Shown here: positions 2,264 through 52,089 of the stretch, piece by piece | Numbering within the stretch: the first letter of the stretch is position 1 | How the letters are laid out: the number at the start of each line of letters is the position of its first letter | NCBI GenBank assembly: GCA_013140985.1 | Contig: JABFRU010000031.1 | Location: forward strand, 1-52,843 | Reading direction: 5' to 3' | Length of the DNA: 52,843 nt | DNA from: Chitinophagaceae bacterium | Lineage (GTDB): Bacteria > Bacteroidota > Bacteroidia > Chitinophagales > Chitinophagaceae | Program-made: the position numbers and the translations under genes | The notes under the pieces: model-generated | What the model was told of the DNA's origin: nothing | Seen by the model: only the letters and a program-made list of their open reading frames with translations | The model's database searches: none

Positions 2264-3268
2264 TCATTTCGGTTGCACACTATTGTCTGCTCCGGCGTAT
2301 TTTTCACAGGCTTTTTTAATTGTTTCTTCCAGCGGGGTGAAGGAGAACCCCGGCAAAGTTTGTAGTAGTTTATCATTTTCAAACCAGGTACGGCTAACGG
2401 CTACCCTGGCAGTTTCTTTTGTTAATAATGGCCGGTGATTTGAAAAAAAAGATTTTAATCTCTCCATTCTCCATGCAATAGCTAATAAAAAAGGAGTGGC
2501 TTCTTTCGAGGGTCTTTTTTTACCAAAAGCATCAGCAATAGTTTCCTGCAATCTTTTAAACGTCCATGTATCGCCATTCACAATAAACCGTTGTTCGGTG
2601 ATATTACTTTCCATTAAAAGGAGAGTAACTTTTGCGACATCTTCTACATCCACAAAACCATTGGTGCCGGGAGTGTACCAGTTGAATCCGTTGTATATAT
2701 TTTTAAAAATGGCACAACTGCCGCTGTTCCAGTCGCCATACCCTAAAATAGTGCTTGGATTTAAAATGACCGCTTCCAAACCTTCAGCCATTCCACGCCA
2801 TACCTGCAGCTCTGCTTTGAATTTACTGATAGCATAATGCGTATTAACCTTGCTTTCCTCCCATTTCTTCTCTTCATTCACATGTCCCCCGGTGGTGGTT
2901 CGCCCTAATGCAGCAACGGAACTGATATGAACTAAGCGCCGTACATTTTTTTCCAGCATGATGTCAATTACATTGGCGGTGCCTTCTACATTTACATGGT
3001 ACATTTTTTTGCGATCTTTCTTTACAAAGGCAACAACCGCTGCAGAATGTATGACGGTATCAACATCTTCCATCGCTTCTTCCAATGCGACCACATCGAG
3101 CACATCACCTTCTATCCATTCTACTTTGTCAAAGATTTCTTTGGGGATCCAAAAAGGAAGTTTGTTGCTACGACGAATGGCTCTTACCGGATAACCCTTT
3201 TCCACCAAATGCTTAATGATGTACGAACCGAGGAATCCTGTGCCACCTGTTACAAGTATAGTTGACAA
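2264..3268 (-). CDS. NAD(P)-dependent epimerase/reductase (extended SDR)
   Basis: Extended short-chain dehydrogenase of 334 residues. The N-terminal nucleotide-binding motif TGGTGFLG starts at residue 7. GDVLD lies in the first third, HISSVAALG supplies the catalytic Ser region, and YAISK gives the YxxxK catalytic pair. NPSTILGYGDW resembles dihydroflavonol-4-reductase-like members that act on small carbonyl or sugar-nucleotide substrates. The exact substrate is not readable. The only in-frame start near the Rossmann motif is TTG at 3268, and this TTG lies inside a unit of the upstream inverted repeat. The next gene upstream on the same strand is the hydroxyacyl-CoA dehydrogenase, 67 bp away. 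Confidence 0.85.
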   Translation of the reverse strand: MSTILVTGGTGFLGSYIIKHLVEKGYPVRAIRRSNKLPFWIPKEIFDKVEWIEGDVLDVVALEEAMEDVDTVIHSAAVVAFVKKDRKKMYHVNVEGTANVIDIMLEKNVRRLVHISSVAALGRTTTGGHVNEEKKWEESKVNTHYAISKFKAELQVWRGMAEGLEAVILNPSTILGYGDWNSGSCAIFKNIYNGFNWYTPGTNGFVDVEDVAKVTLLLMESNITEQRFIVNGDTWTFKRLQETIADAFGKKRPSKEATPFLLAIAWRMERLKSFFSNHRPLLTKETARVAVSRTWFENDKLLQTLPGFSFTPLEETIKKACEKYAGADNSVQPK

Positions 3269-3335
3269 GTTGAAAAATTTACAGGTTGACAGGTTAGGAG
3301 CTGACTTGTGAACTTGTCAACTCTTAACTTGTCAA
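3262..3335. repeat. Inverted repeat of 8-nt units (family GTTGACAA)
   Basis: The left arm has units like GTTGACAA/GTTGACAG. The right arm runs CTTGTGAA, CTTGTCAA, CTCTTAA, CTTGTCAA (3305-3335). The right arm ends exactly at the stop codon of the hydroxyacyl-CoA dehydrogenase (CTA at 3336-3338), and the left arm contains the TTG start of the SDR gene. It belongs to the multi-family element set described in the findings. Confidence 0.8.
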
Positions 3336-4181
3336 CTAATATTGATAATACCCTTCGCCTGATTTTTTCCCAAGTTTCCCTTCTTTTACTTTTTGTTCCT
3401 GGATATAAGAAGGTTTCAATCGTTCCGGCTCATGCAGTTGTTCATATACCGAACAACTGACAGCATAATTAATATCATTGCCGATCAGGTCCATCAGTTT
3501 GAATGGCCCCATTTTAAAACCGGTGGCTTCCAATAACCGATCTGTTTCTTCAAAGCCAACAATATTTTCTTCTGCCAGCCGCAGCGATTCAATATAATAA
3601 GGTCTTGCCACCCTGTTGACAATAAATCCGGGAGAATCCTTACAAATGACCGGCACTTTTCCCATTGCTTTTATCAGGTCAACAACAGTTTGCGTGGTTT
3701 CATTATTCGTATAATTCGTGTTGACCACTTCTACCAGTTTCATGATGGTAGCAGGATTAAAAAAATGCATCCCGATCACTCTTGAAGGATTAATTACTTT
3801 TTCTGCTATCCTGGTAATGGATAAGGAAGAAGTGTTGCTGGCAAAAACAACTTCGCTGTGATTTAATTCTGCCAGCTGGTTAAAGAGGCTGATCTTTATT
3901 TCCTCTTTCTCCACGATAGCTTCAATAAAAAGATCGGCAAGACAGGTTTGCACATCATCTGTATAGCTTATCCGTTGCCCTATTTTTTCTTTTTCCCCGG
4001 CTGTTATCTTTTCTTTATCAGTAAGTGTCCGCAGGTTTTTTTCAATAGCGATTTTTGCTTTTTCCAGCGCTGCTATATTGGGATCATACAACAACACATG
4101 ATAACCCGATTGAGCAATGGCCTGGGCAATGCCACTGCCCATGGTGCCGGCTCCACAAACACAAACGCTGTTGATATTCAT
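3336..4181 (-). CDS. 3-hydroxyacyl-CoA (3-hydroxybutyryl-CoA) dehydrogenase
   Basis: 281 residues, the usual size of the single-function FadB/Hbd family, which oxidises (S)-3-hydroxyacyl-CoA with NAD or reduces acetoacetyl-CoA in the reverse direction. The N-terminal Rossmann motif GAGTMGSGIAQ is at residues 10-20. SNTSSL is followed by GMHFFNPA with the catalytic His at residue 139, and KDSPGFIVNRV marks the start of the C-terminal dimerisation domain. The C-terminal GEGYYQY is typical of the family. No thiolase or crotonase lies nearby, so beta-oxidation, butyrate-type or phenylacetate metabolism cannot be separated from context. Confidence 0.93.
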   Translation of the reverse strand: MNINSVCVCGAGTMGSGIAQAIAQSGYHVLLYDPNIAALEKAKIAIEKNLRTLTDKEKITAGEKEKIGQRISYTDDVQTCLADLFIEAIVEKEEIKISLFNQLAELNHSEVVFASNTSSLSITRIAEKVINPSRVIGMHFFNPATIMKLVEVVNTNYTNNETTQTVVDLIKAMGKVPVICKDSPGFIVNRVARPYYIESLRLAEENIVGFEETDRLLEATGFKMGPFKLMDLIGNDINYAVSCSVYEQLHEPERLKPSYIQEQKVKEGKLGKKSGEGYYQY

Positions 4182-4747: not shown

Positions 4748-4773
4748 AAAACGATCAAAATCTTTTTCAAACG

Positions 4774-9340: not shown

Positions 9341-10369
9341 CTATATCGCCGAAGTAAACTGTTTCAGGAAACGAACATCATTCTCGCTGAAGAGGCGGAT
9401 ATCATTGATGCCGTATTTGAGCATAGCAGGCCGTTCGATACCCATACCGAATGCAAAGCCGGTATATCTTTCAGGATCAATATTGCAATTAGATAAAACA
9501 TTGGGGTGAACCATACCACATCCTAAAATTTCGACCCAGCCTGTTTTTTTACAAATATTACAACCGCTGCCGCCGCAGATAAAACAACTTACATCCATCT
9601 CTGCACTTGGTTCGGTAAAAGGAAAATAAGAAGGGCGGAAGCGGACCTTTACATCCTTACCATACATTTCTTTTACGAAAAAGTAAAGTGTTTGTTTCAG
9701 ATCGGCGAAAGAAACATTCTCATCAATATATAACCCTTCTACCTGGTGAAAAAAACAATGGCTTCTTGCACTGACGGTCTCATTGCGATACACTCTTCCC
9801 GGCATTATCAAACGGATAGGCAACTTACCTTTTTCCATTTCCCGTATCTGCACATTGCTGGTATGCGTTCGAAGGACCCAATCCGGATTTTGCTGAATGT
9901 AAAATGTATCCTGCATATCCCTGGCAGGATGATGCTCGGGCAGATTCAATGCACCGAAATTATGCCAGTCATCTTCTATCTCCGGTCCTTCCGCTACCGC
10001 AAAACCTAATCGTTGAAAGATAGAAACGATCCTGTTCCTCATCAATGTAACAGGATGTCTTGAGCCGATCGGTAATTCATCTCCGGGGAGACTGAGATCA
10101 AGGTTTGATGTCTGAGGCTTGATGTTTGAGGTTGATCCCTTTAGTTGATCATATTTTTCCTCAACAAATAATTTGAAATCGTTCAGCAATTGTCCTGCTT
10201 CTTTTTTGTTTTCAGCGGCCACATTCTTCATCTCGCCCATGATTATTTTTACAATGCCCTTGGTGCCAAGATATTTGATGCGGAATTCTTCCACCTGCTT
10301 TTCATCAGCGGCCGTTGCAGCTTCTATTTCTTTTTTGTACGTATTGATCTGTGATAACAATTGCTCCAT
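9341..10369 (-). CDS. pheS: Phenylalanyl-tRNA synthetase alpha subunit
   Basis: Class II aminoacyl-tRNA synthetase subunit that charges tRNA-Phe together with PheT. 342 residues from the ATG at 10369; a GTG one codon earlier is less likely. The N-terminal coiled coil (about 1-85) is followed by the catalytic core with HPARDMQDTF, the motif 2 region GRVYRNETVSARSHCFFHQ, FTEPSAEMD and a Cys cluster (CFICGGSGCNICKK). The end GMGIERPAMLKYGI is motif 3. Between coiled coil and catalytic domain lies SNIKPQTSNL, encoded by a 7-nt repeat array and absent from typical PheS. pheT is not adjacent, as is common in Bacteroidota. Confidence 0.97.
   Translation of the reverse strand: MEQLLSQINTYKKEIEAATAADEKQVEEFRIKYLGTKGIVKIIMGEMKNVAAENKKEAGQLLNDFKLFVEEKYDQLKGSTSNIKPQTSNLDLSLPGDELPIGSRHPVTLMRNRIVSIFQRLGFAVAEGPEIEDDWHNFGALNLPEHHPARDMQDTFYIQQNPDWVLRTHTSNVQIREMEKGKLPIRLIMPGRVYRNETVSARSHCFFHQVEGLYIDENVSFADLKQTLYFFVKEMYGKDVKVRFRPSYFPFTEPSAEMDVSCFICGGSGCNICKKTGWVEILGCGMVHPNVLSNCNIDPERYTGFAFGMGIERPAMLKYGINDIRLFSENDVRFLKQFTSAI
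10101..10135. repeat. 7-nt repeat arm (TCAAACn family) inside pheS
   Basis: Tandem units of about 7 nt (TCAAACA, TCAAACC and variants, read on the minus strand). They are translated in frame as TSNIKPQTSNL at the linker before the catalytic domain. The same peptide occurs in HolB. Confidence 0.85.
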
Positions 10370-10381: not shown

Positions 10382-10406
10382 CGGAAATAGCGACGAGGCA
10401 TTATTA

Positions 10407-10504
10407 TTTACGAATTACGATTTGGGATTTACGATTTTATTAAAGCACCAAGAGTTTTCGAATAAAAACAAATCGTAAATCATAACCCGTAATTCGTAAA
10501 TCCC
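10407..10504. repeat. Inverted repeat of 7-nt units (family TTTACGA)
   Basis: The left arm is TTTACGA ATTACGA with TTTGGGA TTTACGA. The right arm (10470-10504) has AAATCGT, AAATCAT, AACCCGT, AATTCGT and AAATCCC. All units are exactly 7 nt. The right arm runs into the stop codon of the TonB receptor (CTA at 10504-10506). Confidence 0.88.
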
Positions 10505-13896: not shown

Positions 13897-13997
13897 GGAA
13901 TAAGAAATGAAAAATTAGAAATATACAATAAGAAAGTATGCATTATAAACGACCCACTTTCTCATTCCTCATTTTGCATTTCTTATTTCTTATTTTT
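13897..13997. repeat. Inverted repeat of 7-nt units; right arm codes a signal peptide
   Basis: The left arm (13897-13938) begins right after the TAG of the arginase-fold gene: GGAATAA, GAAATGA, AAAATTA, GAAATAT, ACAATAA, GAAAGTA. The right arm (13956-13997) is ACTTTCT, CATTCCT, CATTTTG, CATTTCT, TATTTCT, TATTTTT. The start codon of the PBP4-type gene is at the edge of the loop, and the right arm is its signal-peptide core. Confidence 0.9.
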
Positions 13998-15263
13998 TTG
14001 TATTCCTGTTCCGTTCAAAAACAAATTTCCAAATCGGCTACAGAAGAAGTTCTAACCAACAAAGCTCTCACCACCGCCCATGTCGGCATCAGCATCTATG
14101 ATCCGGCGGAGAATAAGTACTGGTATAATTATAATGGCGATAAATATTTTGTACCAGCCAGTAATACAAAAATTCCTACCTGTTATGCAGCGATGAAATA
14201 TTTGGGGGATAGTTTGGTGGGGTTGAGGATTTTTAATAGCGACGGCAACTTATATCTTTTTCCAGCCGGCGATCCAAGCTTTCTTCATAAGGATTTTTCA
14301 AATCAGCCCGTCTTTACTTATTTAAAAAATACTAAAGCATCCAATATAACTATTGTTGATACGGTGTGGAGGGACGAGCCTCTGGGGTCGGGCTGGTCAT
14401 GGAATGATTATAATGAAGATTACATGGCTGAAAGGTCATCACTTCCAGTATTTGGAAATATATTTGAATTATCCGGAAGGCAATCGGACTTACATAGCAC
14501 TCCATCATTTAAATTTTCTTATCAATCTGAAGGCAGTTTAGAATTGTCAAGTGTTTTTAGAGAACAGGGGGCCAACAGGTTTTCTTTTGGATTTAAAGGG
14601 GAAAGAAAAAGAACAGTTCGTATCCCTTTTGCAACTATAAAGGGAGAGACAAACAGGCAATTACTTTCTGATACACTTCATAAAAGAATTAATCCACAGG
14701 ACGATTTTATTCCAGTAATCGAAGGAGATCCAAGAGTGATCGCTATTCACTCCCAACCCACCGACTCCCTCCTCAAACCCATGATGCACCGCAGCGATAA
14801 TTTTTTTGCGGAGCAATCCTTGTTAATGGTCAGCAATGAACGATTGGGGTATATGAGTGATGAAAAGATCATCGACACATTATTAAAAACAGACTTTAAA
14901 GACCTGCCGCAAAAACCCAGATGGGCCGATGGCTCGGGACTTAGCCGCTATAATTTATTTACTCCCCAGGATTTTGTTGCCATTCTCAATAAAATGAAGA
15001 ATGAATTTGGAATGGAACGCATCAAAGTCATCCTCCCTACCGGCGGCGAAGGAACGATCAGCAGTTATTACAAGACCGACAGCGGTTATATCTATGGCAA
15101 AACAGGAACACTGTCCGGTGTTGTTGCCTTCAGCGGCTATTTATATACTAAAAAAGGTAAGCTGCTTATTTTTTCTACACTCATCAATAATCACCAGGCT
15201 TCGGCGACTGATGTGAGAAGAGCGGTTGAGAAGTTTCTTCAAGGGCTAAGAAACCGGTATTAA
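13938..15263 (+). CDS. dacB: D-Ala-D-Ala carboxypeptidase/endopeptidase (PBP4, peptidase S13)
   Basis: 441-residue penicillin-binding protein that trims or cleaves peptidoglycan peptides in the periplasm. The serine motif PASNTK gives Ser75 and Lys78. The second motif SDN is in HRSDNFFAEQ, and KTG is in YGKTGTLSG. Length and spacing fit the S13 family with its large insert between the first two motifs. LYSC at residues 21-24 is a lipobox, so it is probably lipid-anchored. The hydrophobic core of the signal peptide (residues 7-21) is translated from a dispersed 7-nt repeat arm, which also fixes the start at 13938. Confidence 0.93.
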   Translation: MHYKRPTFSFLILHFLFLIFLYSCSVQKQISKSATEEVLTNKALTTAHVGISIYDPAENKYWYNYNGDKYFVPASNTKIPTCYAAMKYLGDSLVGLRIFNSDGNLYLFPAGDPSFLHKDFSNQPVFTYLKNTKASNITIVDTVWRDEPLGSGWSWNDYNEDYMAERSSLPVFGNIFELSGRQSDLHSTPSFKFSYQSEGSLELSSVFREQGANRFSFGFKGERKRTVRIPFATIKGETNRQLLSDTLHKRINPQDDFIPVIEGDPRVIAIHSQPTDSLLKPMMHRSDNFFAEQSLLMVSNERLGYMSDEKIIDTLLKTDFKDLPQKPRWADGSGLSRYNLFTPQDFVAILNKMKNEFGMERIKVILPTGGEGTISSYYKTDSGYIYGKTGTLSGVVAFSGYLYTKKGKLLIFSTLINNHQASATDVRRAVEKFLQGLRNRY

Positions 15264-15357
15264 ATAAGAAATAAGGAATAAAGAATAAGAAATGAGGAAG
15301 TTGAAGCTCACTTACTTCCTCATTTCTTATTTCTCATTTTTTATTCCTTATTTTTTC
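15264..15357. repeat. Inverted repeat of 7-nt units (family ATAAGAA)
   Basis: The left arm starts directly after the TAA of the PBP4-type gene: ATAAGAA, ATAAGGA, ATAAAGA, ATAAGAA, ATGAGGA. The right arm (15316-15357) is TTCCTCA, TTTCTTA, TTTCTCA, TTTTTTA, TTCCTTA, TTTTTTC. It is the same family as the elements at 13897 and 26681. The resulting hairpin could serve as a weak terminator. Confidence 0.88.
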
Positions 15358-15412
15358 TTCTTCCCACCCAACCTTTCCCTTCCCCCGGCAGTATATGCCT
15401 GAAATAATTATT

Positions 15413-17774: not shown

Positions 17775-19258
17775 TGAATCAACTTCTGCCATATGAGTTA
17801 GAATTGAACCAGCAATGGCCCGATCTTCCTTTGCCGGATGTGAATATGGCATGGGCAGATATGAAACGCAGGCTGGATGAAGAAGATAAAAGAAGAGTTG
17901 TTCCTTTCTGGCTGACAGGTTGTGCCGGTTGGGGATTGTTGGGCATTCTTTTATTGGGATTGGGCTGGTGGATAGTGCGTCCTGAAAAATGGTTTACCCA
18001 TAAGCAAGGAACAGAAAAAACAAATGGGTTACCCGAAGAGAATAGGAGAACGGAAAAGGATACTCTGTATCATCAAGCAGATACAGCAACAACATCAGCA
18101 AATACAACAAGGGACACAATACTGATCAATAATGATACAAGCAGTCTTGCTATAACAACAAAAGATCCTTTGGCAAATAAAAAAACAAAACCTGTTGCTG
18201 CCGGAGATGAAACGGTATCAATGGAGAAAATAAGAGGAAATACAACAAAAAGGAAGAAGCCGGTAGTTGAACAAAAAAAAGATGAAATAATTGGTAAAAA
18301 GAAAGAAGGAAACAATGAGAAGCAGTTGCCGGTTGAAAAAAAGAATGAGACCGGTATTAAAATACCTCCCGGCGATAAAGCCAAACAAAAAGAACTGCCG
18401 GCTGATACAGCAACTATGGTTAAGCGGGTTGAAAAACCAAAACGAGATACAGTTGCCAGTATTGTAAAAACAGAACCTGTCGCTGACACTGTTCAGAAAA
18501 AAGATTCTGTAGTAAAGAAAATAGAAGAGCCGGTTGTTAATGATAAAAAACCAAAGAAAGACAGCAGTAAAAAAAGTCCATTGGTATTCAGTGCAGGCAT
18601 TGGATTGTATCAGCAATTGCCGGTAGCAGGACAAAAATGGACTCCTTACAGTTCATCAGGAAGAAAAACCTCGTTGGCCGATTATATACCTTCTGTTTAT
18701 GTAAGAATTACCAAACCGGGCAAATGGTTCCTGCAATCTGAATTCCGATATGGTGCGCCGCAGCAAACAAAAGAATTTAAATTCCGGCAACTCGTAACGA
18801 CCGATACGAACACCCAGGGAGTGCAGTTCACTAATACAAATGCTTATACACTTAAGAAAACATTTTATCATCAATTACCGCTAAGTTTCAATTACTATAT
18901 TTTACCGAACTGGTCAGTAGGAGCCGGCATGCAATGGAATAATTTCCATGCAGCAGTGGCAGAGAGGGAATTCATCCGAAGAACAAGTTTTACACAACAG
19001 ACAATAGACTCCACCAAATTCATTGAGCCGCTGAAAAAAGATTCAGCCTATGAGTTTAAGAGATCATATTGGCAGGCGATCCTGCAAACACAATATCAAT
19101 GGAGGCGATTCACATTCGGCGCAAGATATAATTTCGGATTGCAGCCTTATATCAGCTTCACTTTACCCGGCGGCAATCCGCAGGAAGAAAAGAACAGCTC
19201 GTTACAACTGTTCATATTGTTTGAACTGTGGAAATCTAAGAAGAAAGATAAAAACTAA
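17774..19258 (+). CDS. Membrane-anchored protein with barrel-like C-terminus (candidate anti-sigma)
   Basis: 494 residues. An acidic N-terminal helix (residues 1-43) precedes one transmembrane segment at about 45-67 (WGLLGILLLGLGWW). A Lys/Glu/Asp/Thr-rich low-complexity linker spans about 75-265. The C-terminus (about 268-494) has alternating strand patterns and aromatic ends (FSAGIGLYQQLP, FTFGARYNFGLQPYISF), like an outer-membrane beta-barrel. It is translationally coupled to the ECF sigma gene, so the cytoplasmic helix could bind sigma. An inner-membrane helix plus barrel-like domain across a long linker is an odd topology; the C-terminus could instead be a soluble periplasmic beta-domain. 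Confidence 0.7.
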   Translation: MNQLLPYELELNQQWPDLPLPDVNMAWADMKRRLDEEDKRRVVPFWLTGCAGWGLLGILLLGLGWWIVRPEKWFTHKQGTEKTNGLPEENRRTEKDTLYHQADTATTSANTTRDTILINNDTSSLAITTKDPLANKKTKPVAAGDETVSMEKIRGNTTKRKKPVVEQKKDEIIGKKKEGNNEKQLPVEKKNETGIKIPPGDKAKQKELPADTATMVKRVEKPKRDTVASIVKTEPVADTVQKKDSVVKKIEEPVVNDKKPKKDSSKKSPLVFSAGIGLYQQLPVAGQKWTPYSSSGRKTSLADYIPSVYVRITKPGKWFLQSEFRYGAPQQTKEFKFRQLVTTDTNTQGVQFTNTNAYTLKKTFYHQLPLSFNYYILPNWSVGAGMQWNNFHAAVAEREFIRRTSFTQQTIDSTKFIEPLKKDSAYEFKRSYWQAILQTQYQWRRFTFGARYNFGLQPYISFTLPGGNPQEEKNSSLQLFILFELWKSKKKDKN

Positions 19259-19359
19259 AAGATAATAGATAAAAGTGCGTTGTGCCTGTAGTGTTTTCTC
19301 TGTTTTGTAATACTCTTTCTTCTGTAAAGACTTTTAGTTATTAGTTTTTATCTTTTATC
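19252..19359. repeat. Stop-to-stop inverted repeat of 7-nt units (family AAGATAA)
   Basis: The left arm is AAACTAA AAGATAA TAGATAA, and the TAA stop of the upstream gene is inside the first unit. The right arm (19332-19359) is TTTTAGT TATTAGT TTTTATC TTTTATC and contains the stop codon of mutL (TTA at 19355-19357). The element therefore links the stops of two convergent genes. Confidence 0.9.
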
Positions 19360-21175: not shown

Positions 21176-21212
21176 AAAATCAAGTTTAGCCGTCAAAAAT
21201 AGCAAATTGGGC

Positions 21213-21348
21213 ACACGGATGACACGGAGTAGACGGATGAAAACGGATTTTTTATCCGCCGCGGCGGATAAATCCGTGTTTATCTGATTTTGGCGATGTA
21301 CCACAGATTAGGAACAGTTGAAATCTGTCCAATCCGTGTCATCCGTGT
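21213..21348. repeat. Long inverted repeat (ACACGGATGACACGGA) with internal perfect palindrome
   Basis: The 16-bp arm ACACGGATGACACGGA (21213-21228) is the exact reverse complement of 21333-21348. Inside lies a perfect 20-bp palindrome at 21252-21271 with core ATCCGCCGCGGCGGAT. The element separates the divergent mutL and GH3-fusion genes, and makes both open frames look longer than the true genes. Confidence 0.92.
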
Positions 21349-21410
21349 TCCTGTATTCTTCAAAAGAGTTAATTTTAAGACTCCTTTCGAAATACAATAA
21401 TTGCCATATT

Positions 21411-33553: not shown

Positions 33554-34255
33554 ATGATACTTGACAGCGTTGGAATGATCATTTCCCTTGTTTTTTTAGG
33601 GATCAGTTTACTGGTATCTGCCATCTTAAAAGCCAGGTTCAATAAGTACCATAAAATAGGCCTGGCCAATGGACTTTCAGGCCGGGAAATAGCGGAAAAA
33701 ATGCTCCGGGAGAATGGTATTTATGATGTAAAAGTGACTTCTGTAGAGGGATTTTTATCAGACCATTATAACCCGACCAATAAGACCGTCAACCTGAGCC
33801 CGGAAGTGTATAACGGCACCACCGTTTCGGCCGCTGCAGTTGCGGCACATGAATGCGGGCATGCCGTCCAACACCAGGTAGGGTATGCCCCTTTAAAGCT
33901 CAGGAGCAAATTGGTCCCGGCTGTTCAGCTTTCTGCTACCCTCCAGAACCTCATTATAATGGGAGGGTTAATAGTTCTGGCCATGACCAAAAACCCAACC
34001 GTTTTGCTGATCGGGATTATTGTTATGGCTGTTACCGTTATATTTTCCATCATTACTTTACCAGTCGAATTTGATGCAAGTAAAAGAGCCCTGGCATGGT
34101 TGCAGCAAACCAATGTCACCAATGCCCAGGAATATCCTAAAGCTAAAGATGCCCTCAAATGGGCGGCTACAACCTATGTTGTTGCCGCATTAGCTGCCGT
34201 GGTAACATTGATACATTATATTATGATCTATCTTGGAAGCAGGGATAGAAGTTAG
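33554..34255 (+). CDS. YugP-family membrane zinc metallopeptidase
   Basis: 233 residues. Zinc-binding HECGH at residues 99-103 sits in a membrane protein with helices near 7-25, 127-147, 150-170 and 205-228. The family (formerly DUF2265) is predicted to be a membrane-bound protease. The site and the conserved TLPVEFDASKRAL after the third helix match the family. Target proteins unknown. It converges with rng, and the two stops are joined by an inverted repeat. Confidence 0.9.
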   Translation: MILDSVGMIISLVFLGISLLVSAILKARFNKYHKIGLANGLSGREIAEKMLRENGIYDVKVTSVEGFLSDHYNPTNKTVNLSPEVYNGTTVSAAAVAAHECGHAVQHQVGYAPLKLRSKLVPAVQLSATLQNLIIMGGLIVLAMTKNPTVLLIGIIVMAVTVIFSIITLPVEFDASKRALAWLQQTNVTNAQEYPKAKDALKWAATTYVVAALAAVVTLIHYIMIYLGSRDRS

Positions 34256-34341
34256 GTAATAGATAAAAGTGGATAGATAATAGTTGTAAAGAGTCCTGGG
34301 CTTAAGACAACTATTATCTATTAGTTATTAGTTTTTATCTA
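34253..34341. repeat. Stop-to-stop inverted repeat of 7-nt units
   Basis: The left arm begins at the TAG of yugP: TAGGTAA TAGATAA with AAGTGGA TAGATAA TAGTTGT. The right arm (34307-34341) is ACAACTA, TTATCTA, TTAGTTA, TTAGTTT, TTATCTA, whose final CTA is the rng stop codon. Same family as 19252-19359. Confidence 0.92.
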
Positions 34342-35892
34342 AAGCTTGATCTCTTCCTCATCCCTGTCGAAGAAACGATACTCTGTCAGATGATAATTGC
34401 TGTTTGATTCTAATTTCGTTTTTTGCCCGTATTTCTTTTTCCACTGAGCCATTTTTGTTTTCCATGGCCAGCCTTTGGTCAGGTAAGCATATAAAATAGG
34501 ATGCACTACCAGTTTCAGATTGGAATGTTTATGTGTGAGCAGGTAACCAAGATTCTTTTCGATCTCATCTTCCAGTAATAATGTTGAAGATATTTTCCCG
34601 GTGCCATTGCAACTTGGACATGCTTCCTGGGTATTAATATTCATCTCCGGCTTCATCCGCTGCCGTGTGATCTGCATGATACCGAATTTGGAAATAGGCA
34701 GTACGGCATGTTTGGCCCTGTCGGGACTCATGTACTCTTCTACTTTCTCCATCAGCTTCCGTTTGTTCTCCGGAAGTTTCATATCAATGAAATCAACAAC
34801 AATAATTCCTCCAAGATCTCTCAACCGTAATTGACGGGCAATTTCTTCAGCCGCTTCGAGATTTGTCTCAAGTGCATTTTGCTCCTGGTTATTGCTAACA
34901 CTTTTATAGCCACTGTTCACATCAATAACATGCAATGCTTCTGTATGTTCAATGATAACATAAGCGCCGCTGTCGAGATTTACAGTTTTACCAAAAGAAG
35001 ATTTAACCTGTTTGGTAATACCGAATGAATCAAAAATGGTAGAACCATTCTGGTAAAAGGAAACGATGTCTGCCTTTTCCGGAGCAATCCGTTGGATATA
35101 ACTTTTGGTGTCAGCAAAAATGTTCCGGTCGTTTACAACAATCTTGTTGAAATCTTCATTCAAAAGGTCACGGAGGATGCTGGTTGTTTTTGTTTGTTCG
35201 CTTAATACCCTTGTTGGTGCTGCAGCTCCTTTAAGATTTTGCTGAATGGTCTTCCACATTTCTACCAAAGCAGAAAGGTCTTCATGCAATTCTGCTGTAT
35301 TCTTTCCTTCAGCAGCAGTACGAACAATCACTCCGAAATTTTTTGACTTGATCGCTTCAACGATCTTTTGCAGCCTTTTTCTTTCTTCAGAAGAATGAAT
35401 TTTTCTTGATACAGCTACAATATCATTAAACGGAGTTAAAACAACGAAGCGTCCTGGCAATGAGATCTCGCAGCTTAATCTTGGCCCCTTGGCTGCGATA
35501 GGTTCTTTGAGGATCTGTACAAGTATATTCGGCTTGCCGTTCAGTACTTCATTGATCTTACCGGTCTTGATAATCTCCGGCTCAATAGTGAATTTTCCAA
35601 AATCAAGGCCCTGTTCACTTTTATCGTTCATACACATATTGGTGAACTTAAGCAGCGACTTTGCATAGGGACTCAAATCCGTATAGTGAAGAAAGGCATC
35701 TTTCTCAAATCCAACATCCACAAAAGCAGCATTCAGCCCGGGAATTAGTTTTTTGACCTTTCCGAGATACAAATCACCTACGGCAAAACGGGCATCGCTT
35801 TTTTCGCTATGCAGTTCTACCAGCTTTTTGTCCTCAAGAAGTGCTATTTCCACACCCTGGGGCGCTGCATTAATAATAAGTTCTTTGTTCAT
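34339..35892 (-). CDS. rng: Ribonuclease G/E
   Basis: 517 residues, an RNase E/G-family endoribonuclease for rRNA maturation and mRNA decay. The N-terminal S1 domain (GDLYLGKVKKLIPGLNAAFVDVGFEKDAFLHY) begins near residue 43. The catalytic part has IVVDFIDMK with the metal Asp residues. The zinc-link CPSCNGTG is near residue 425. Without the long RNase E scaffold tail it is RNase G-sized. The 5' region has a TTACAGC/GCTGTAA inverted repeat and, further up, the mS38-like gene on the same strand. Confidence 0.94.
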   Translation of the reverse strand: MNKELIINAAPQGVEIALLEDKKLVELHSEKSDARFAVGDLYLGKVKKLIPGLNAAFVDVGFEKDAFLHYTDLSPYAKSLLKFTNMCMNDKSEQGLDFGKFTIEPEIIKTGKINEVLNGKPNILVQILKEPIAAKGPRLSCEISLPGRFVVLTPFNDIVAVSRKIHSSEERKRLQKIVEAIKSKNFGVIVRTAAEGKNTAELHEDLSALVEMWKTIQQNLKGAAAPTRVLSEQTKTTSILRDLLNEDFNKIVVNDRNIFADTKSYIQRIAPEKADIVSFYQNGSTIFDSFGITKQVKSSFGKTVNLDSGAYVIIEHTEALHVIDVNSGYKSVSNNQEQNALETNLEAAEEIARQLRLRDLGGIIVVDFIDMKLPENKRKLMEKVEEYMSPDRAKHAVLPISKFGIMQITRQRMKPEMNINTQEACPSCNGTGKISSTLLLEDEIEKNLGYLLTHKHSNLKLVVHPILYAYLTKGWPWKTKMAQWKKKYGQKTKLESNSNYHLTEYRFFDRDEEEIKL

Positions 35893-36034: not shown

Positions 36035-36110
36035 GTTTCAGGTTTGAGGTTTGAAGTTTGAGGTTGGTCTTGATCTCTCAAAACATCGAACATCAAACTT
36101 CAAACCTCCA
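36035..36110. repeat. Inverted repeat of TCAAACn / TTTGAGG units
   Basis: The left part contains AGGTTTGAAGTTTGAGGTT. The right part contains AACATCAAACTTCAAACCT, its reverse complement at 18 of 19 positions. This is the two-armed intergenic form of the arrays inserted in pheS and holB, lying between the mS38-like gene and rng. Confidence 0.9.
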
Positions 36111-36114
36111 ACAA

Positions 36115-36210
36115 TTACTTGTTCCTCTTCTTATGACGGTTCTTTCTCAGTCTTTTTTTACGCTTATGCGTCGCAATCTTATGACGCTTTCTTTTTTTAC
36201 CACAAGGCAT
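36115..36210 (-). CDS. 31-residue basic protein, mS38/AURKAIP1-COX24-like ribosomal protein
   Basis: The ATG at 36210 gives MPCGKKRKRHKIATHKR and ends RHKKRNK: 31 residues, more than half Lys, Arg or His. This sequence family is widespread in Bacteroidota and carries the AURKAIP1/COX24 domain name after the mitochondrial ribosomal protein mS38. The window copy has an intact start and stop, and lies upstream of rng on the same strand. The extreme charge and constant length in the family (known, not checked here) suit a ribosomal RNA-binding protein. Confidence 0.88.
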   Translation of the reverse strand: MPCGKKRKRHKIATHKRKKRLRKNRHKKRNK

Positions 36211-40779: not shown

Positions 40780-41382
40780 ATGAAAAGATCTTCCCGATTT
40801 CACATCTTGTTCCTTGTGCCCTGTGCCTTGTACCTTCTTTCATGCAACAGCGACTATACAGCCGGAAAACGAAAAGGTTATTTTAAAATTGATTTTCCTG
40901 AAAAAGAATACCGGGTATTTGACAGTGCAGGTTATCCATACACGTTTGAATATCCTGTGTATGCCAGTGTGATCAGGGATTCAACTTTTTTTGATGATAA
41001 AGCCGGGGACTGGTGGGTGAATATAGATGTGCCGCAGTTTGCAGGAAGAATTTATGTAAGTTATAAAGCGATCAATAAGCAAAACCTCTTTGATTCATTG
41101 ATACAGGATGCCTTTAAAATGGCATACCGTAAACATGTTGACATTGCCACAGGGATTAATGACAGCCTGATGCAAACTCCCAATGGCGTTGAAGGAATTT
41201 ATTTCTCATTAGGTGGAAATACAGCTACGGCCAATCAATTCTTCCTGACAGACTCCACCAAACATTTTTTAAGAGGTGCATTATATTTCGATGCAGCACC
41301 TAATGCAGATTCGCTGGGTATCGTTAATGATTTTTTGAAAAAAGATTTGCTGCACCTTATCAATACCCTCAAATGGAAATAA
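40780..41382 (+). CDS. gldD: Gliding motility lipoprotein GldD
   Basis: 200 residues, starting at the base after the gldE stop. Signal peptide with lipobox LLSC. The mature part (GYFKIDFPEKEYRVF, ASVIRDSTFFDDKAGDWWVNI, HFLRGALYFDAAPNADSLG) matches the GldD lipoprotein family, required for gliding in F. johnsoniae. The signal-peptide core is encoded by a 7-nt repeat array (40806-40833). Presence of gldD and gldE alone does not show that this organism glides. Confidence 0.92.
   Translation: MKRSSRFHILFLVPCALYLLSCNSDYTAGKRKGYFKIDFPEKEYRVFDSAGYPYTFEYPVYASVIRDSTFFDDKAGDWWVNIDVPQFAGRIYVSYKAINKQNLFDSLIQDAFKMAYRKHVDIATGINDSLMQTPNGVEGIYFSLGGNTATANQFFLTDSTKHFLRGALYFDAAPNADSLGIVNDFLKKDLLHLINTLKWK
40806..40833. 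repeat. 7-nt repeat arm inside the gldD signal peptide
   Basis: CTTGTTC, CTTGTGC, CCTGTGC, CTTGTAC in tandem, read as LFLVPCALY. Same family as the arrays in ricT and purH. Confidence 0.9.
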
Positions 41383-41820: not shown

Positions 41821-41827
41821 GTTGTAT

Positions 41828-41914
41828 AGTTTTAAAGTTTAAAAGTTTAAGGGTTCAAAGGTTCAAGAGGTTCGGGTCCTAACGTTAAACTATTGAACCA
41901 TTAAACCTTTAAAC
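41828..41914. repeat. Inverted repeat of 8-nt units (AGTTTAAA family)
   Basis: Left: AGTTTTAA, AGTTTAAA, AGTTTAAG, GGTTCAAA, GGTTCAAG. Right (41883-41914): CGTTAAAC, TATTGAAC, CATTAAAC, CTTTAAAC, ending exactly at the stop codon of the DUF2306 gene (TCA at 41915-41917). Confidence 0.9.
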
Positions 41915-42607
41915 TCATATAGCGAACGATTTCAAATATTTCTTACTCTGCCGGTAAATGATCAACTCAGCAAACAGCATATTGCCAATAACACTGATCC
42001 AGAGTGACAATTCATAATTCTTTAAATGATCCCATCCCAGTAAATAAAAAACGATATGATAGACCCTGAATGTAACAGCTGTCATGGCCATGGAGTAACT
42101 TCTCATCATCCATATCTTATGCGCCAGCACATTTCTTTTATGGATAGTGGTCAATCCATATAAAGTGGTGACAAACCACCAGCCTGCCATGAACATGAAC
42201 AAAGCTCTCTCACCAAGACTTCCTTTCGCAAAAAATGCCATGTACAGACCGGTGGGTGCACCGAGGAAGAGAACGACGGCCACATAGATCTTGCCAGAAA
42301 AACGATGAATGGCTTTTGATTTCTTCATGATATATCTGGAAAATTGGATAAGGGCGGTTCCAATACAAAGGGCGCCTGCAGCGATATGTATATAAAAGCA
42401 GGCATTATAAAAACTACTTTGAAAAAGAAAACTTCTTTCTTCAATAAAGCTGAAGTCCTTGCTAAAAGAAAAATAAGGAAGTGTATTATAGATAAGCAAT
42501 AAGCTAAACCCGATAACAGGTACCCAGAACAGCATCTGGAATAAAACCCTGGCGGACTTTTGGAAGGTGATGACTCTTGTGTTTTGCATACAGTTGGGTT
42601 GTGACAA
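41915..42607 (-). CDS. DUF2306 membrane protein
   Basis: 230 residues with six or seven transmembrane helices. Family features: HIAAGALCIGTALIQFSR, IHRFSGKIYVAVVL, and HKIWMMRSYSMAMTAVTFRVYH with conserved His/Arg residues. Function of DUF2306 is unknown; the conserved His residues in the membrane suggest a heme or electron-transfer role (inference). It is divergent from the TPR gene at 42724, with the start regions 116 bp apart. Confidence 0.8.
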   Translation of the reverse strand: MSQPNCMQNTRVITFQKSARVLFQMLFWVPVIGFSLLLIYNTLPYFSFSKDFSFIEERSFLFQSSFYNACFYIHIAAGALCIGTALIQFSRYIMKKSKAIHRFSGKIYVAVVLFLGAPTGLYMAFFAKGSLGERALFMFMAGWWFVTTLYGLTTIHKRNVLAHKIWMMRSYSMAMTAVTFRVYHIVFYLLGWDHLKNYELSLWISVIGNMLFAELIIYRQSKKYLKSFAI

Positions 42608-48101: not shown

Positions 48102-49409
48102 ATGATCATCTATTCCAAAACCATAACTCCCCGTCTCCGCTACATCACCGGTCTTATCGGTAAAGAAATCATAGGCAGGCCTTTTGAACTTACCGATGCT
48201 ATAGACAAATACAAACAGGAAGGTGGAGCAAAGATGAATTACAGTGACAGGGTGCTGGGAGATGACGAACTCCATTTGTTCCCTCATTCATTGTTGTTTG
48301 AAGATGATGTCAAGGAACAGGAAACCGCTTGTTTTGAAACGAATGGTTATAAGGCTTTTTTTAAAACCGGGGGGGATTATCCATTCGATATTTTTGCCGC
48401 TTCGTTTTATTTATTGAGCCGTTACGAAGAATACCTGCCACATACCAAAGATCTGTATGGCCGCTATGCACATGAAAATTCACTGGCATTTAAAAATGAT
48501 TTTTTAAACATTCCGCTGGTCAATGTTTGGATAAACGAGTTTGTGCAAAAGCTCAAACAAAAATTCCCGGCATTCAGCATTCAGCATCCAGCATTCTGTT
48601 TTTTGCCTACCTATGATATCGATGAAGCCTATTCATATAAACACAAAAGTTGGTGGAGGCGTACCGGTGCTGTTATAAAAGATCTTCTTACAACCGGGAT
48701 GGAAAGAGTGAGGTTAAGAAAAAAGGTGTTGAAGAATGAGACAGATGACCCTTTTGACTCTTATGATTGGATAGATGTTCTTCATCAGGCAAATAAAATA
48801 ACCCCCCGTTATTTTTTCCTTGTGCCGGGTAAAACAGGAAAATATGATCGCAATATTTTGCCAACAGAACCGGCATTGCAATCATTGATAAAGAGACATG
48901 CTGATAAATATGATATCGGTGTTCATCCTTCCTGGCAAAGCGGTGATGAACCATCTTTGTTAAAAACAGAAATAGAAACGATTGAAAATATCACAAAGAA
49001 AAAGATCGTTTCATCCCGCCAGCATTTTATTCGTTTTAATTTACCGGAAACATTTCGCCGGTTAATTGATGCAGGTATCAAAGAAGATTTTTCTATGGGC
49101 TATGGAAGTGTAAATGGTTTTCGGGCATCTGTTGCCTCTCCTTTTTACTGGTACGATCTTGAGAAGGATGAACCCACCTCCTTATTGCTATATCCTTTTT
49201 GTTATATGGAGGCCAACTCTTTTTACGAGCAAAATCTCACTCCCTGGCAGGCCCTGCATGAAATGACACATTATTATAATGAAGTAAAAAAAGTGAACGG
49301 CACCTTCATCACCATCTGGCACAATACATTTCTGGGAACAGATTCAACATTCAAAGGATGGAGAGAAGTGTATGCAGGATTTTTTAAAGAAGTAGCCGGC
49401 AAGACCTAA
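48102..49409 (+). CDS. Polysaccharide deacetylase-like protein
   Basis: 435 residues. An N-terminal domain of about 170 residues (Bacteroidota-specific, RPFELTDA, FDIFAASFYLLSRYEEYLPH) is followed by a NodB-like domain: TYDIDEAY with the first metal Asp, GVHPSWQSGDE with the His motif, RQHFIRFN and IWHNTFLG. It would remove N-acetyl groups from surface polysaccharide. A 7-nt repeat array lies in the linker just before the catalytic strand. It overlaps the convergent EamA gene by 4 bp. Confidence 0.85.
   Translation: MIIYSKTITPRLRYITGLIGKEIIGRPFELTDAIDKYKQEGGAKMNYSDRVLGDDELHLFPHSLLFEDDVKEQETACFETNGYKAFFKTGGDYPFDIFAASFYLLSRYEEYLPHTKDLYGRYAHENSLAFKNDFLNIPLVNVWINEFVQKLKQKFPAFSIQHPAFCFLPTYDIDEAYSYKHKSWWRRTGAVIKDLLTTGMERVRLRKKVLKNETDDPFDSYDWIDVLHQANKITPRYFFLVPGKTGKYDRNILPTEPALQSLIKRHADKYDIGVHPSWQSGDEPSLLKTEIETIENITKKKIVSSRQHFIRFNLPETFRRLIDAGIKEDFSMGYGSVNGFRASVASPFYWYDLEKDEPTSLLLYPFCYMEANSFYEQNLTPWQALHEMTHYYNEVKKVNGTFITIWHNTFLGTDSTFKGWREVYAGFFKEVAGKT
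48570..48597. repeat. 7-nt repeat arm (GCATTCA family) inside the deacetylase gene
   Basis: GCATTCA, GCATTCA, GCATCCA, GCATTCT in tandem, read in frame as AFSIQHPAF before the catalytic TYDID strand. Confidence 0.9.
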
Positions 49410-50422
49410 ACACCTTCCGATTCTGGTTGCTCAGGTGTTGGTATTGAAGATCTGAAAGCCCTGTTGACAAGATAAACTCCCACCAACGTTACCAACCCGC
49501 CGATAATAATAAATTCCGTGATGGCATCCCCAAAATATATTGAACCGCAAATAACAGCCACCATCGGGTTCACATATGCATAGATGGAGGCTTGTTCGGT
49601 TGGAAGGTTTTGTAATGCATATAAATAGCAGATGAATGCGATCAATGATCCGAAGATGATAAGGTAAGCAATGGATGCCCATGATTGCCAGGGAATGCTC
49701 GTCAATGGAATAGCAATGCCATTGATGGAAGTAAACGAATAAAGACAAACTCCCGATATCAGCATTTGTAATCCAAGGCTGAAATAAGGATTAAAACTTG
49801 CAGCTTGCTTTTTGGTATATAAAGTAGCAAAGGCCCATGTCCAGGTAGCGATCACGGAAAACAAAATACCCAATTGAAATCCCGGGTCAAGAAAATCCTG
49901 CAGGTGATCAGAGAAAATAATGCAGACACCGCTAAAACCCAATAACAATCCAATGATCGCCAGCGATGGCATTTTTTCTTTTGAAGCAAACAACCCGATC
50001 ACTACTATCCACAATGGAAAGATGGCGCCGATGATGGAACCGAGTCCCGCAGAGATATTATATTGAAGTGCCAGTGTACTCAGCCCATTACTGATCATGA
50101 AATTCAGAAAACTTAATACAAGTACCGGTATCCATTCCTTTCCTTTCGGGAAAGGAGCTTTTTTATAAATGAAGAATCCTACATATAATATTCCGGCGAT
50201 CAGTTGACGGATACTTGCCATTTGCAAGGCAGGCATCCGCTTCACACCTTCTTTGGATGCGATCCAGGTGGTGCCCCATAAAATACAAACCAACGCCAGG
50301 CAAAAAAGAGCTTTCGCCCTTGTCCCTTTTTTATGAATGGTCAGTGGATTAAATACCGATAATTTTTTTATTGAATCAGCAGAGGATTGAAGAATGGTTT
50401 TATGAAAATCAAAGATGTTCAT
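49406..50422 (-). CDS. EamA-family (DMT) transporter
   Basis: 338 residues, ten transmembrane helices as two EamA repeats: ALVCILWGTTWIASKEGVK in the first and TLYTKKQAASFNPYFSLGLQML with the second half. Drug/metabolite superfamily exporter; substrate unknown. The ATG at 50422 overlaps the purH stop (TGATG), so it is translationally coupled to purH. This might reflect a link to purine or nucleoside export, though operon partners in this phylum are often unrelated. Confidence 0.9.
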   Translation of the reverse strand: MNIFDFHKTILQSSADSIKKLSVFNPLTIHKKGTRAKALFCLALVCILWGTTWIASKEGVKRMPALQMASIRQLIAGILYVGFFIYKKAPFPKGKEWIPVLVLSFLNFMISNGLSTLALQYNISAGLGSIIGAIFPLWIVVIGLFASKEKMPSLAIIGLLLGFSGVCIIFSDHLQDFLDPGFQLGILFSVIATWTWAFATLYTKKQAASFNPYFSLGLQMLISGVCLYSFTSINGIAIPLTSIPWQSWASIAYLIIFGSLIAFICYLYALQNLPTEQASIYAYVNPMVAVICGSIYFGDAITEFIIIGGLVTLVGVYLVNRAFRSSIPTPEQPESEGV

Positions 50423-52089
50423 CAATGTTTAAAATGTCTCATGCCTGTTATCACCATTGCCAAATCATTTTCTTTACAATACCCGATTGAATCATTATCT
50501 CTTATCGAACCACCCGGTTGAATAAAAGCAGTGATACCGGCCTCATGCCCCATCTTCACACAGTCATTAAAAGGAAAGAAGGCATCGCTGGCCATTACAG
50601 CGCCGTTCAGATCAAAATTGAATTGCTTTGCCTTTTCAATGGCTTGACGGAGGGAATCGATACGGCTGGTTTGTCCGCAACCTTTACCGATAAGCTGTTT
50701 GTCTTTTATTAAAGCGATCGCATTAGATTTTAAATGCTTGCAGATAAGATTGGCAAAAATCAAGTCTTCTTTTTCTGCAGCAGTGGTTTCTCTGCCGCCA
50801 GCTTCTTTCCATTCTGTATAATTTCCGTCATCAGCGCCTTGTATCAATACTCCATTTAGTAATGAACGGTACATTTCTTGTTGTCTTGTGCCTTGTCCCT
50901 TGTGCCTTAGTAATATCCTGTTCTTCTTCGACCTCAAAACTGTCAACGCATCTTCATTAAAAGTCGGAGCGATCAATACTTCAAAGAAAATTTCATTAAT
51001 GGCATGAGCTGTGGCATTGTCAATTGTTCCGTTGCAAACCAGCACACCGCCAAAAGCACTTTCAGGATCACCGGCCAGTGCAGCATCCCAGCTTTCTTTT
51101 ATGGTTGAGCGTACAGCAACGCCGCATACATTTGTATGCTTGATGATGGCAAATACAGCCTCCCTGCCCTCCGTCGGAGAAGCCGCCCCAAGCCCCTCCG
51201 AAGGAGGGGTTTTAGAGTCTGCAAATTCAAAAAGTTTTTCTGATTGTACAGACTCCGAGGTTCCCCCTTGCGGGGGATTTAGGGGGGCCATATCTCTTAT
51301 CAACTGTATCGCAGCATCTACATCGACCAAATTATTATAAGAGAGTTCTTTGCCGTTCAATTTTTCAAATAAATTATCCAGGTTGCCATAGAAAACTGCT
51401 GATTGATGTGGATTCTCACCATATCGCAGCGGAACAGGGTTCGTAATGGATTCTAAAAAATATAATGATTCGGAAGGATTGAAATATTTGGCGATGGCTA
51501 CATCATAATGGGCCACCACTTCAAACGCTTTTGCAGCAAAATTCTTTCTTTGTTCGAGTGTTGTTTCTCCTTTTTGTTCTTTCAATAACTGTTCTAATGC
51601 TGCATAATCTTTTTTTGCAGCGATCACAACCACATCGGCAAAATTCTTGGCAGCGCCGCGGATCATAGAAGGCCCGCCGATATCTATTTTTTCGATGATC
51701 GCTTTTTCTTTTTCGTTTTCACCGCCTTGAAAGGCGGAATTATTCACTGTTTGCACAGTTTCTTCGAAAGGATACAGGTCAACGATCACAAGATCTATTT
51801 CAGGAATATTGTATTGTTTCATTTCCTCCACATGGCTGGCATCAGTTCTTTTACCAAGGATGCCGCCAAAAACAGAAGGGTGCAATGTTTTTACCCGGCC
51901 GCCCAGTATGGAAGGATAGGAGGTAAGCTCTTCCACCGGTATTACTTTTACCCCAAGCTTCTCAATAAATATTTGTGTACCGCCGGTAGAATAAATAGTA
52001 ATTCCCAGCTGGTCTAATTGTTTAATGATAGGCTCAAGCCCATCTTTGTAAAAAACAGAGATGAGGGCCGACTGGATTTTTTTGTTCAT
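50422..52089 (-). CDS. purH: Bifunctional AICAR transformylase / IMP cyclohydrolase
   Basis: 555 residues, catalysing the last two steps of IMP synthesis. The N-terminal MGS-like IMP cyclohydrolase (about 1-195; ISVFYKDGLEPII, YSTGGTQ, GGRVKTLHP) precedes the AICAR transformylase (about 200-555; LRYGENPHQSAVFYG, IIKHTNVCGVAV, DAFFPFND). Two extra segments are repeat-derived: about 44 residues between LIRDM and FAIIKHTN, and HKGQGTRQQ before RSLLNGV. A textbook promoter sits 42 bp upstream in the comEC gene. eamA follows, coupled by TGATG. Confidence 0.96.
   Translation of the reverse strand: MNKKIQSALISVFYKDGLEPIIKQLDQLGITIYSTGGTQIFIEKLGVKVIPVEELTSYPSILGGRVKTLHPSVFGGILGKRTDASHVEEMKQYNIPEIDLVIVDLYPFEETVQTVNNSAFQGGENEKEKAIIEKIDIGGPSMIRGAAKNFADVVVIAAKKDYAALEQLLKEQKGETTLEQRKNFAAKAFEVVAHYDVAIAKYFNPSESLYFLESITNPVPLRYGENPHQSAVFYGNLDNLFEKLNGKELSYNNLVDVDAAIQLIRDMAPLNPPQGGTSESVQSEKLFEFADSKTPPSEGLGAASPTEGREAVFAIIKHTNVCGVAVRSTIKESWDAALAGDPESAFGGVLVCNGTIDNATAHAINEIFFEVLIAPTFNEDALTVLRSKKNRILLRHKGQGTRQQEMYRSLLNGVLIQGADDGNYTEWKEAGGRETTAAEKEDLIFANLICKHLKSNAIALIKDKQLIGKGCGQTSRIDSLRQAIEKAKQFNFDLNGAVMASDAFFPFNDCVKMGHEAGITAFIQPGGSIRDNDSIGYCKENDLAMVITGMRHFKH
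50885..50905. repeat. 7-nt repeat arm (CTTGTGC family) inside purH
   Basis: CTTGTGC, CTTGTCC, CTTGTGC: three 7-nt units, 21 nt, read on the minus strand as part of HKGQGTRQQ in a loop of the transformylase domain. Confidence 0.9.
51166..51289. repeat. Repeat-derived insertion in purH (PPQGG/PPSEG type)
   Basis: GC-rich arms with CTCCGAAGGAGGGG and CCCCCTTGCGGGGG plus AGAGTC/GACTC ends. On the minus strand they encode LNPPQGGTSES, SKTPPSEGLGAASP and flanking residues, all absent from ordinary PurH. Such PPxGG-coding repeats occur widely in Bacteroidota. Confidence 0.85.

Follow-up and report, generated by a model that had tools for sequence, protein, structure and literature searches.

A contig of 52,843 nt (JABFRU010000031.1) from the genome of a Chitinophagaceae bacterium (GCA_013140985.1; 3.86 Mb in 83 contigs, among which it is our C73), analysed here at its full length and referred to as the window, carries short imperfect tandem arrays with units of 7 or 8 nt that either stand singly, some of them inside genes, or face each other as the inverted arms of hairpins, often close to stop codons. 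Tandem Repeats Finder returns about 20 such arrays, and with them the units that the first-pass annotation had named when it described about twenty elements of this kind, with a unit sequence (hereafter the word) that differs between families. Related species often have arrays at the same sites but mostly with other words, which speaks for a process that writes repeats of fixed unit length and against a single copied element.

Arrays and hairpins along the window

The paired element at 3260..3337, between two minus-strand genes, is built of the 8-nt word AGTTGACA/GTTGACAG, and ATTGAAT units are found at its site in the relative G021. A paired element with the word ATTTACG and the variants AATTACG and ATTTGGG follows at 10406..10501. 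The word AATAAGA forms the paired element at 13899..13998, which follows an arginase-like gene and precedes an S13 peptidase gene, at a site where many relatives have arrays, mostly of other words; AATAAGA/AATGAGG units occur again in a paired element that begins right at the S13 peptidase stop codon (15262..15360) and in a single intergenic array (26683..26712). Between convergent genes, paired elements are located at the 3′ end of mutL (19239..19360; AAGATAA/AAACTAA), at 34252..34342 (units such as TAATAGA/TTATTAG), where most of the larger-genome relatives, i.e., those with genomes of 2.6 Mb and more, have a compact hairpin, and at 41821..41915 (8-nt word AGTTTAAA/GGTTCAAA), where G021 has a shorter spacer and no array. 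The GTTTGAG element at 36035..36113 lies 1–2 nt past the stop of a minus-strand gene (36115..36210) for a tiny basic protein of 31 aa, which may be bTHX-like.

Inside genes, the mutL array (19923..19984; GCGAGTG, with a partial inverted arm) falls into the inter-domain linker: the N-terminal domain matches reach residue 369, and the C-terminal match starts at 466. The single TTGATGT/CTGAGGC array of pheS (10105..10136; called with period 14) lies between the N-terminal domain (23–78) and the catalytic core (91–339), and arrays are also present here in six relatives, in two of which the word is a single step away from the own one. Other single arrays are found in a PSP1-domain gene, in its C-terminal part and not within the domain match (25511..25542; CCCTGTT/CCTTGTC; arrays in L127 and L124 too), in a holB-like gene just ahead of the best Pfam stretch (27891..27926; TTTGAGG; other words in L139, G021 and L131), in the first codons of gldD ahead of the domain match (40806..40836; CTTGTGC; GTTGCTG in G021), inside the DUF7033 match of a gene (48570..48596; GCATTCA), and in purH within the best AICARFT stretch (50882..50908; CTTGTGC; CTGACTT/CAGACTT in G021).

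The first-pass annotation let the arrays extend from 3262 to 51289; the arrays are real, but the last heptad array ends at 50908. The two-copy matches at 21991–22006 and 37073–37087 are poor members of the set, and the in-gene array at 10105–10136 was missing from the list, as were the inverted-arm architecture, the polarity, and the in-gene sites as such. The inverted pair at 21210..21351, upstream of mutL, consists of 9-nt-like ACACGGATG units and is a related type, not a 7-/8-nt array; in G008 and G020, the spacer at this site is short and the element absent. A 126-nt tandem repeat of 4.6 copies (6930–7509) lies in a large open reading frame (ORF) on the minus strand (6770–9271).

Period and architecture

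Periodicity was assessed by counting lag-matching segments with a score of at least 11 and by comparing them with dinucleotide-preserving block shuffles. The own-genome sample comprised the window and 40 further stretches (840,747 bp), and the sample of named relatives, which are Chitinophagaceae such as Terrimonas and Niabella found via the window's mutL, comprised 80 loci around mutL (1,571,670 bp). In the own genome, period 7 gave 81 segments versus 1 in shuffled sequence and period 8 gave 20 versus 0, with 14 versus 2 for period 9, 10 versus 1 for period 12, and at most six for each of the remaining periods from 4 to 11; a stricter cut over the first 453 kb left 32 versus 0 for period 7. 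The named loci gave 117 versus 0 for period 7 and 35 versus 2 for period 8, and a period-7 array is present in 43 of the 80, so that the overrepresentation of 7 that the first-pass annotation had proposed to check is found in the own genome and across Chitinophagaceae. The draft state of an assembly alone does not explain the arrays, since L196, a record titled as a chromosome, is the richest named locus (eight arrays). The window is richer in arrays than average, with 16 of 98 in 52.8 of 840.7 kb. As array searches pick periodicity, inverted repeats were also tested without such a selection. In the arms of 42 own intergenic inverted repeats (arms of at least 18 nt), autocorrelation was 0.574 at lag 7, 0.411 at lag 8, and 0.569 at lag 14, versus 0.21–0.33 at the remaining lags between 3 and 15 and 0.30–0.34 in shuffled arms.

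Near mutL, L138 and L140 contain long perfect 8-nt arrays (CATCAGCA and ACATTAGC) with lag scores up to 109, which resemble fresh expansions, and other palindromic repeats (GTCATRCCGRGGAACGAGG-like and CCCTCCGAAGGAGGG) are found after mutL in L055, L057, and L124.

The own set of 98 arrays consists of 80 with 7-nt and 18 with 8-nt units. An inverted partner (score at least 12, within 150 nt) was found for 49 of them, versus 3.8% when flanks were swapped, and a same-strand partner by the same measure for none of the 98. The remaining half is single, some inside genes, and 29 of the 98 arrays lie inside ORFs, a gene context that is approximate as it was taken from in-house calls of at least 100 aa. 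The 46 paired elements, whose sources include short loci fetched as word hits (L001, L003, L004, L007), have arms of a median 27 nt, i.e., about four units, and loops of a median 27.5 nt. As the longest stretch common to their loops and flanks is 14 nt, no cassette has been copied, and a copied cassette or a miniature inverted-repeat transposable element was ruled out on this ground, with weak matches of 10–14 nt remaining. Mobile palindromic repeats of the REP/REPIN type, moved by a Y1 (RAYT) transposase, are therefore a very unlikely explanation: while the own genome has five Y1_Tnp matches, and such matches occur in 18 of 42 genus genomes and in none of the seven small genomes that gave no array, the array-bearing G039 and G049 have none, hardly anything outside the arms is common to the elements, and the words at one site differ between species.

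Within arrays, substitutions are unevenly distributed over the unit (290 of 462 columns invariant versus 251 expected), and mismatches between arms are frequent. In 233 arrays, units two apart were identical at a rate of 0.199, versus 0.143 after one shuffle of the unit order, and adjacent units at 0.121 versus 0.149; the identity of units two apart suggests that two-unit steps of 14 nt occur. As 7 and 8 are not multiples of 3, we also considered that the arrays might be stop-codon cassettes for all frames, and rejected this, as the 42 co-directional intergenic arrays contain 83 sense-strand stops versus 87 (standard deviation 9.1) after column permutation.

Placement relative to genes

Paired elements of the own genome occur at 0.567 per kb in co-directional gaps, 0.664 in convergent gaps, 0.288 in divergent gaps, and 0.007 inside genes, and those of the named loci at 0.133, 0.378, 0.023, and 0.004, respectively. 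Single own arrays occur at 0.402, 0.284, 0.404, and 0.033 in the same order and show no clear gene-strand preference. In co-directional gaps, paired elements start at a median of 2.5 nt past the upstream stop in the own genome (n = 24) and of 3 nt in the named loci (n = 11), and 15 of the 24 and 8 of the 11 lie nearer to this stop than to the following start codon.

Sites after two genes were followed through the relatives. After the tiny basic gene, anchored in 29 loci (the own one, 18 of larger-genome and 10 of small-genome relatives), stems of at least 18 nt are found in 16 of the 18 larger-genome relatives, seven of them heptad or octad by the rule of our script, and in none of the 10 small-genome ones. 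After the RNase G gene (30 loci), a compact hairpin (loop of at most 7 nt, within 40 nt of the stop) is present in 18 of 19 larger-genome relatives, as counted by eye, since the terminator label of the script was too strict and fired on only four; the own genome has a heptad element there. A heptad element can thus occupy the place of a terminator-type hairpin, although the lack of conservation at the site after mutL speaks against extending this to other sites.

This placement speaks for an account in which the elements are selected RNA structures, namely terminators or stabilisers of 3′ ends, with selection acting on stem formation only and the heptads a by-product of stem lengthening: the paired elements sit immediately past stops and are rarest in divergent gaps, and stems recur after the RNase G gene and the tiny basic gene. 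We nevertheless regard it as rather unlikely as the general explanation, as roughly every second array lacks an inverted partner, the arrays in ORFs include those in the core genes mutL, pheS, holB, and purH, arm mismatches are frequent, and the polarity, described below, is opposite to that of compact terminators.

Same site, different word

In a mutL alignment of 20 genomes, the linker of close relatives also contains arrays, but of other units, and that of distant ones contains none; altogether, this site has 17 arrays in 15 genomes, the own one included. Over 43 relatives, arrays pile up at several own array sites of the window. Between 9341 and 31692, relatives have 28 aligned in-gene arrays, of which 23, from 12 genomes, are no more than 75 nt away from one of the four own in-gene arrays there, with 0.78 expected, and of the five others, two are at the 13899 site, where the ORF call overlaps it. 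Arrays that several species have at one site should not be counted as independent events, and our reading includes inheritance.

The degree to which words are retained differs between sites. Between genomes, 15% of the word pairs at the mutL site are within one substitution (2% between different sites) and 66% are three or four substitutions apart, versus 79% for random 7-mers; at the pheS site, the corresponding values are 15% and 76%. At the 13899 site, 43% are within two substitutions (random 19%) and 57% at three or four, and at the holB site, all six pairs are three or four apart. The words at one site are thus mostly unrelated, with some memory of the word that is stronger at some sites. 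Since the position of the arrays is kept between species while most words differ like random 7-mers, a common generating process is supported. In this respect, the first-pass annotation, which had inferred a common mechanism and not descent from one element, was right, with the qualification that the sites within a genome are not independent of each other. When G039 is compared with G049, the words at one site differ completely within a segment that is 83% alike, and two other sites keep their words.

In the pairs G039/G049 and G049/G038, near-identical patches of about 100 nt extend over heptad arrays in a background of about 85–88% identity.

Words within and between genomes

The families of the own genome read as degenerate words in which certain positions are fixed: GTSAATN, for example, covers 8 loci and GTTTGAD covers 13. 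In addition, 178 pairs of own words are at most one substitution apart, versus 88 after letter shuffling (maximum of 200 shuffles, 112). Word use differs markedly between species: GTTTGANGTTTGANGTTTGA, with one mismatch allowed, has 43 matches in the own genome and no more than 9 in any of the other 41 of the genus, and GGAGTCNGGAGTCNGGAGTC has 176 in G047, 113 in G003, 60 in G011, 12 in the own genome, and none in 30 of the 42. These whole-genome counts are the unbiased evidence, as four of the six G047 stretches in our word-sharing comparison had been picked because a single word matched there. A role as tandem binding sites, for regulators or other sequence-specific proteins, would be in line with degenerate words that have fixed positions, but dozens of words would require many proteins, words change at conserved sites, and single arrays follow no clear gene strand, so that we give this explanation hardly any credence.

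Word variants are common to both arms of an element at a rate of 0.683 (0.402 expected), to different loci of the own genome at 0.385 (0.257), and to the own and the named genomes at 0.270 (0.222). The excess between own loci suggests a limited exchange of words between the loci of one genome. Plain polymerase slippage that acts independently at each site, with neither fold-back nor exchange, could draw on a survey in which heptanucleotides were the commonest class of long simple repeats in most genomes, with polymerase contact length as the proposed cause, as relayed in PMC4679880. It leaves, however, the single word in both inverted arms, the fixed polarity, and the sharing of variants between loci unexplained, and we consider it quite improbable.

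Arrays are also unevenly distributed, with a dispersion index of 1.78 over 43 own stretches. Seven small-genome relatives gave no array in 137.6 kb, but genome size alone is not the rule, as two further relatives with small genomes, G006 and G013, do have arrays, each with a single word. In other families of the order, 232 kb from 13 genomes contained 15 arrays, all in four of the genomes; G024 gave none in 40 kb, where low-complexity sequence was unfiltered.

Polarity of the paired elements

In periodic hairpins, the G-bearing, C-poor arm comes first; an element was scored as G-first if its first arm, reading inwards from the outer end, contains more G than C. Pooled without duplicates, 51 elements are G-first and 5 C-first, with 2 ties; the first own set contributed 29 G-first elements among 33 decided ones, with two ties, the other genus stretches 5 of 5, the named loci 14 of 14, and fresh own stretches (115.6 kb) three versus none. 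As an inverted pair reads alike from both strands, this polarity is intrinsic to the element. No such bias is seen in long non-periodic hairpins (26 G-first versus 22 C-first), and compact terminators lean to the opposite side (37 versus 70). The four own C-first exceptions seem, judged by eye, to form one CACAAAGACAC-like family, three of them being near-identical, and the fifth C-first element, from G049, resembles this family by its letters, again in a grouping by eye. The absolute GC skew of arrays, 0.66 versus 0.26 in random 32-nt windows, is not interpreted, as a repeated short word by itself raises the skew.

C-first hairpins of a separate kind, TCCCACAAAGACACAAA-like and unlike the heptad elements, are those at L019:16247, L024:4289, L027:12779, and L041:602, and three of these four are near-identical.

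A proposed model of growth and rewriting in place

We observe the period, the inverted pairing, the proximity to stop codons, the retained site with its changed word, the sharing of variants, and the polarity, and we propose, with a probability of roughly one half, that the elements, stem-loops on the one hand and single arrays at permissive coding sites on the other, are grown and rewritten in place by copying in steps of about 7 nt (sometimes 8, often 14). Tandem units would be made by short slipped or template-switched copying, and the second arm would be made or renewed by fold-back copying of the C-poor strand. We propose that both arms carry one word because the second is a fold-back copy, and that the polarity follows because it is the C-poor strand that snaps back. 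Occasional copying between loci may spread words through the genome, and arrays would persist where they do little harm, at 3′ ends and in tolerant places of proteins; at a 3′ end, the hairpin may protect the transcript or block read-through.

Several observations weigh against this model of rewriting in place. It does not account for why the unit is 7, and no copying event was seen; the two G009 contigs that we had considered as a strain pair proved to be 69–89% alike by segment and were dropped as such. The complete change of words between G039 and G049 is poorly explained by slippage and slow drift. As to distribution, the own region C1:220001-317318 (L035–L039, 97 kb) has no array at our cut, where about 11 were expected, with two periodic hairpins below the cut, and fresh stretches of G047, G018, G049, and G052 gave 0, 1, 1, and 5 arrays per 100 kb, respectively. 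In these fresh stretches of four relatives (400 kb), the sole periodic hairpin, in G049, is C-first, and four of the five polarity cases from other genus stretches represent one orthologous site in four species. Single own arrays do not avoid divergent gaps. The purH and DUF7033-gene arrays fall within domain matches, and linkers are therefore not the sole in-gene sites. A conserved heptad site after mutL is unsupported, with a heptad hairpin in 7 of 97 loci, the own one included.

Candidate enzymes were assessed by gene content. Among reverse transcriptases, for which only the RVT_1 profile was searched, there is no match in the own genome, and 6 of the 42 genus genomes have one. Ku is likewise without a match in the own genome and present in just 2 of 42, and a Ku-dependent fill-in of staggered breaks was rejected on this basis. 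The Y-family polymerase is present in 42 of 42 and thus uninformative as a distinguishing factor. Neither RVT_1 nor Ku nor the Y1 transposase looks required, since the own genome or array-bearing relatives have no match. In G042:C77, G008:C168, G052:C32, and G018:C20, a Y1_Tnp (RAYT-like) match lies about 0.2–1.3 kb from a Y-family polymerase match.

An improbable variant would be an unrecognised bacterial activity that synthesises DNA in inherent steps of about 7 nt and adds C-poor heptads to 3′ ends, followed by fold-back or end joining; head-to-head arrays would then be like miniature telomere fusions, and repeated action would overwrite a site with the current word of the species.

Comparison with known systems

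The heptamers of Xanthomonas, with the word GGGAATC (GGGNATC), are the closest precedent for the elements described here. According to the text available, a preference for four units is stated, convergent inverted pairs number 70 and 75 in two genomes, the repeats are located downstream of ORFs, near or overlapping the stop codon, and the gene context is mostly the same in two species while length and sequence vary (PMC4692102). They thus have the same heptamer arms, inverted pairs, and proximity to stop codons, and their pairs would be G-first like those described here if the word "convergent" is read in this way (PMC4692102). The Xanthomonas repeats have, however, a single G-rich word that is discussed as a quadruplex former (PMC4692102), whereas our genome has many words, many of them poor in G (AATAAGA, GTTTGAG, ATTTACG) and free of the G-tracts of GGGNATC. 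The replacement of words at conserved sites and the arrays at conserved in-gene places are further differences from what that text describes.

The first-pass annotation had cited heptanucleotide STRR repeats from cyanobacteria and knew of no named equivalent in Bacteroidota. Heptamers are also known outside cyanobacteria, as in Xanthomonas, and TAACTGA heptamers have been reported from Beggiatoaceae, Cyanobacteria, and five Bacteroidetes (PMC4679880). The cyanobacterial STRR of Calothrix are similar in that one genome has several kinds of tandem heptanucleotides (PMC4692102, in the part accessible). The TAACTGA repeats are short heptamers in tandem too, found between genes and at times within them; in the main genome of that study, they are, by the accessible text, mostly just upstream of starts, in 169 direct sets with one indirect repeat (PMC4679880). 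They consist of one word, in contrast to the many words and the inverted pairs near stop codons found here, and the TAACTGA consensus matches none of our 80 seven-nt arrays in any rotation or on either strand. As for STRR, we know of no inverted pairing, polarity, or site-by-site rewriting among them.

The tandem repeats of Borgs, which evolve fast and are said to have arisen independently, are also found both between genes and in proteins, in disordered regions, but are described in the available text as perfect, with units of 18–21 nt that are divisible by three in ORFs (PMC9879509), unlike the imperfect 7-/8-nt units and the hairpin pairs described here. One conserved palindrome in dispersed copies, as in REP/REPIN systems, is not seen, with no more than 14 nt shared, and the associated Y1 transposase is present in the own genome and without a match in the array-bearing G039 and G049. 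Repeats made by reverse transcriptases, as in retrons and diversity-generating retroelements, would call for an RVT_1 match, and the own genome has none. Intrinsic terminators, which are compact GC-rich hairpins with a T-run behind them, are set apart by the long arms and loops (medians 27 and 27.5 nt) and the opposite polarity of our elements.

No paper on such elements of Chitinophagaceae was found in the literature covered, which leaves out most subscription journals. What appears to be new is an architecture independent of the word, with words replaced at conserved sites, recurrence within genes, and one polarity across words. In the survey relayed with the TAACTGA work, heptanucleotides outnumber every other class of long simple sequence repeat in most genomes, for which contact with the polymerase was put forward as the reason (PMC4679880), and the old question why long bacterial repeats favour 7 nt now becomes a comparative one: as array-rich species and species in which no array was found share one genus, the responsible factor can be searched by gene content. 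The elements also show one way in which new sequence arises within proteins and at the 3′ ends of mRNAs. Compared with the heptamer repeats known from elsewhere, unit length and architecture are separable from sequence here, as a change of word leaves site, period, pairing, and polarity intact, and this undercuts the word-specific explanations, such as G-quadruplex formation or regulator binding, that have been given for those repeats.

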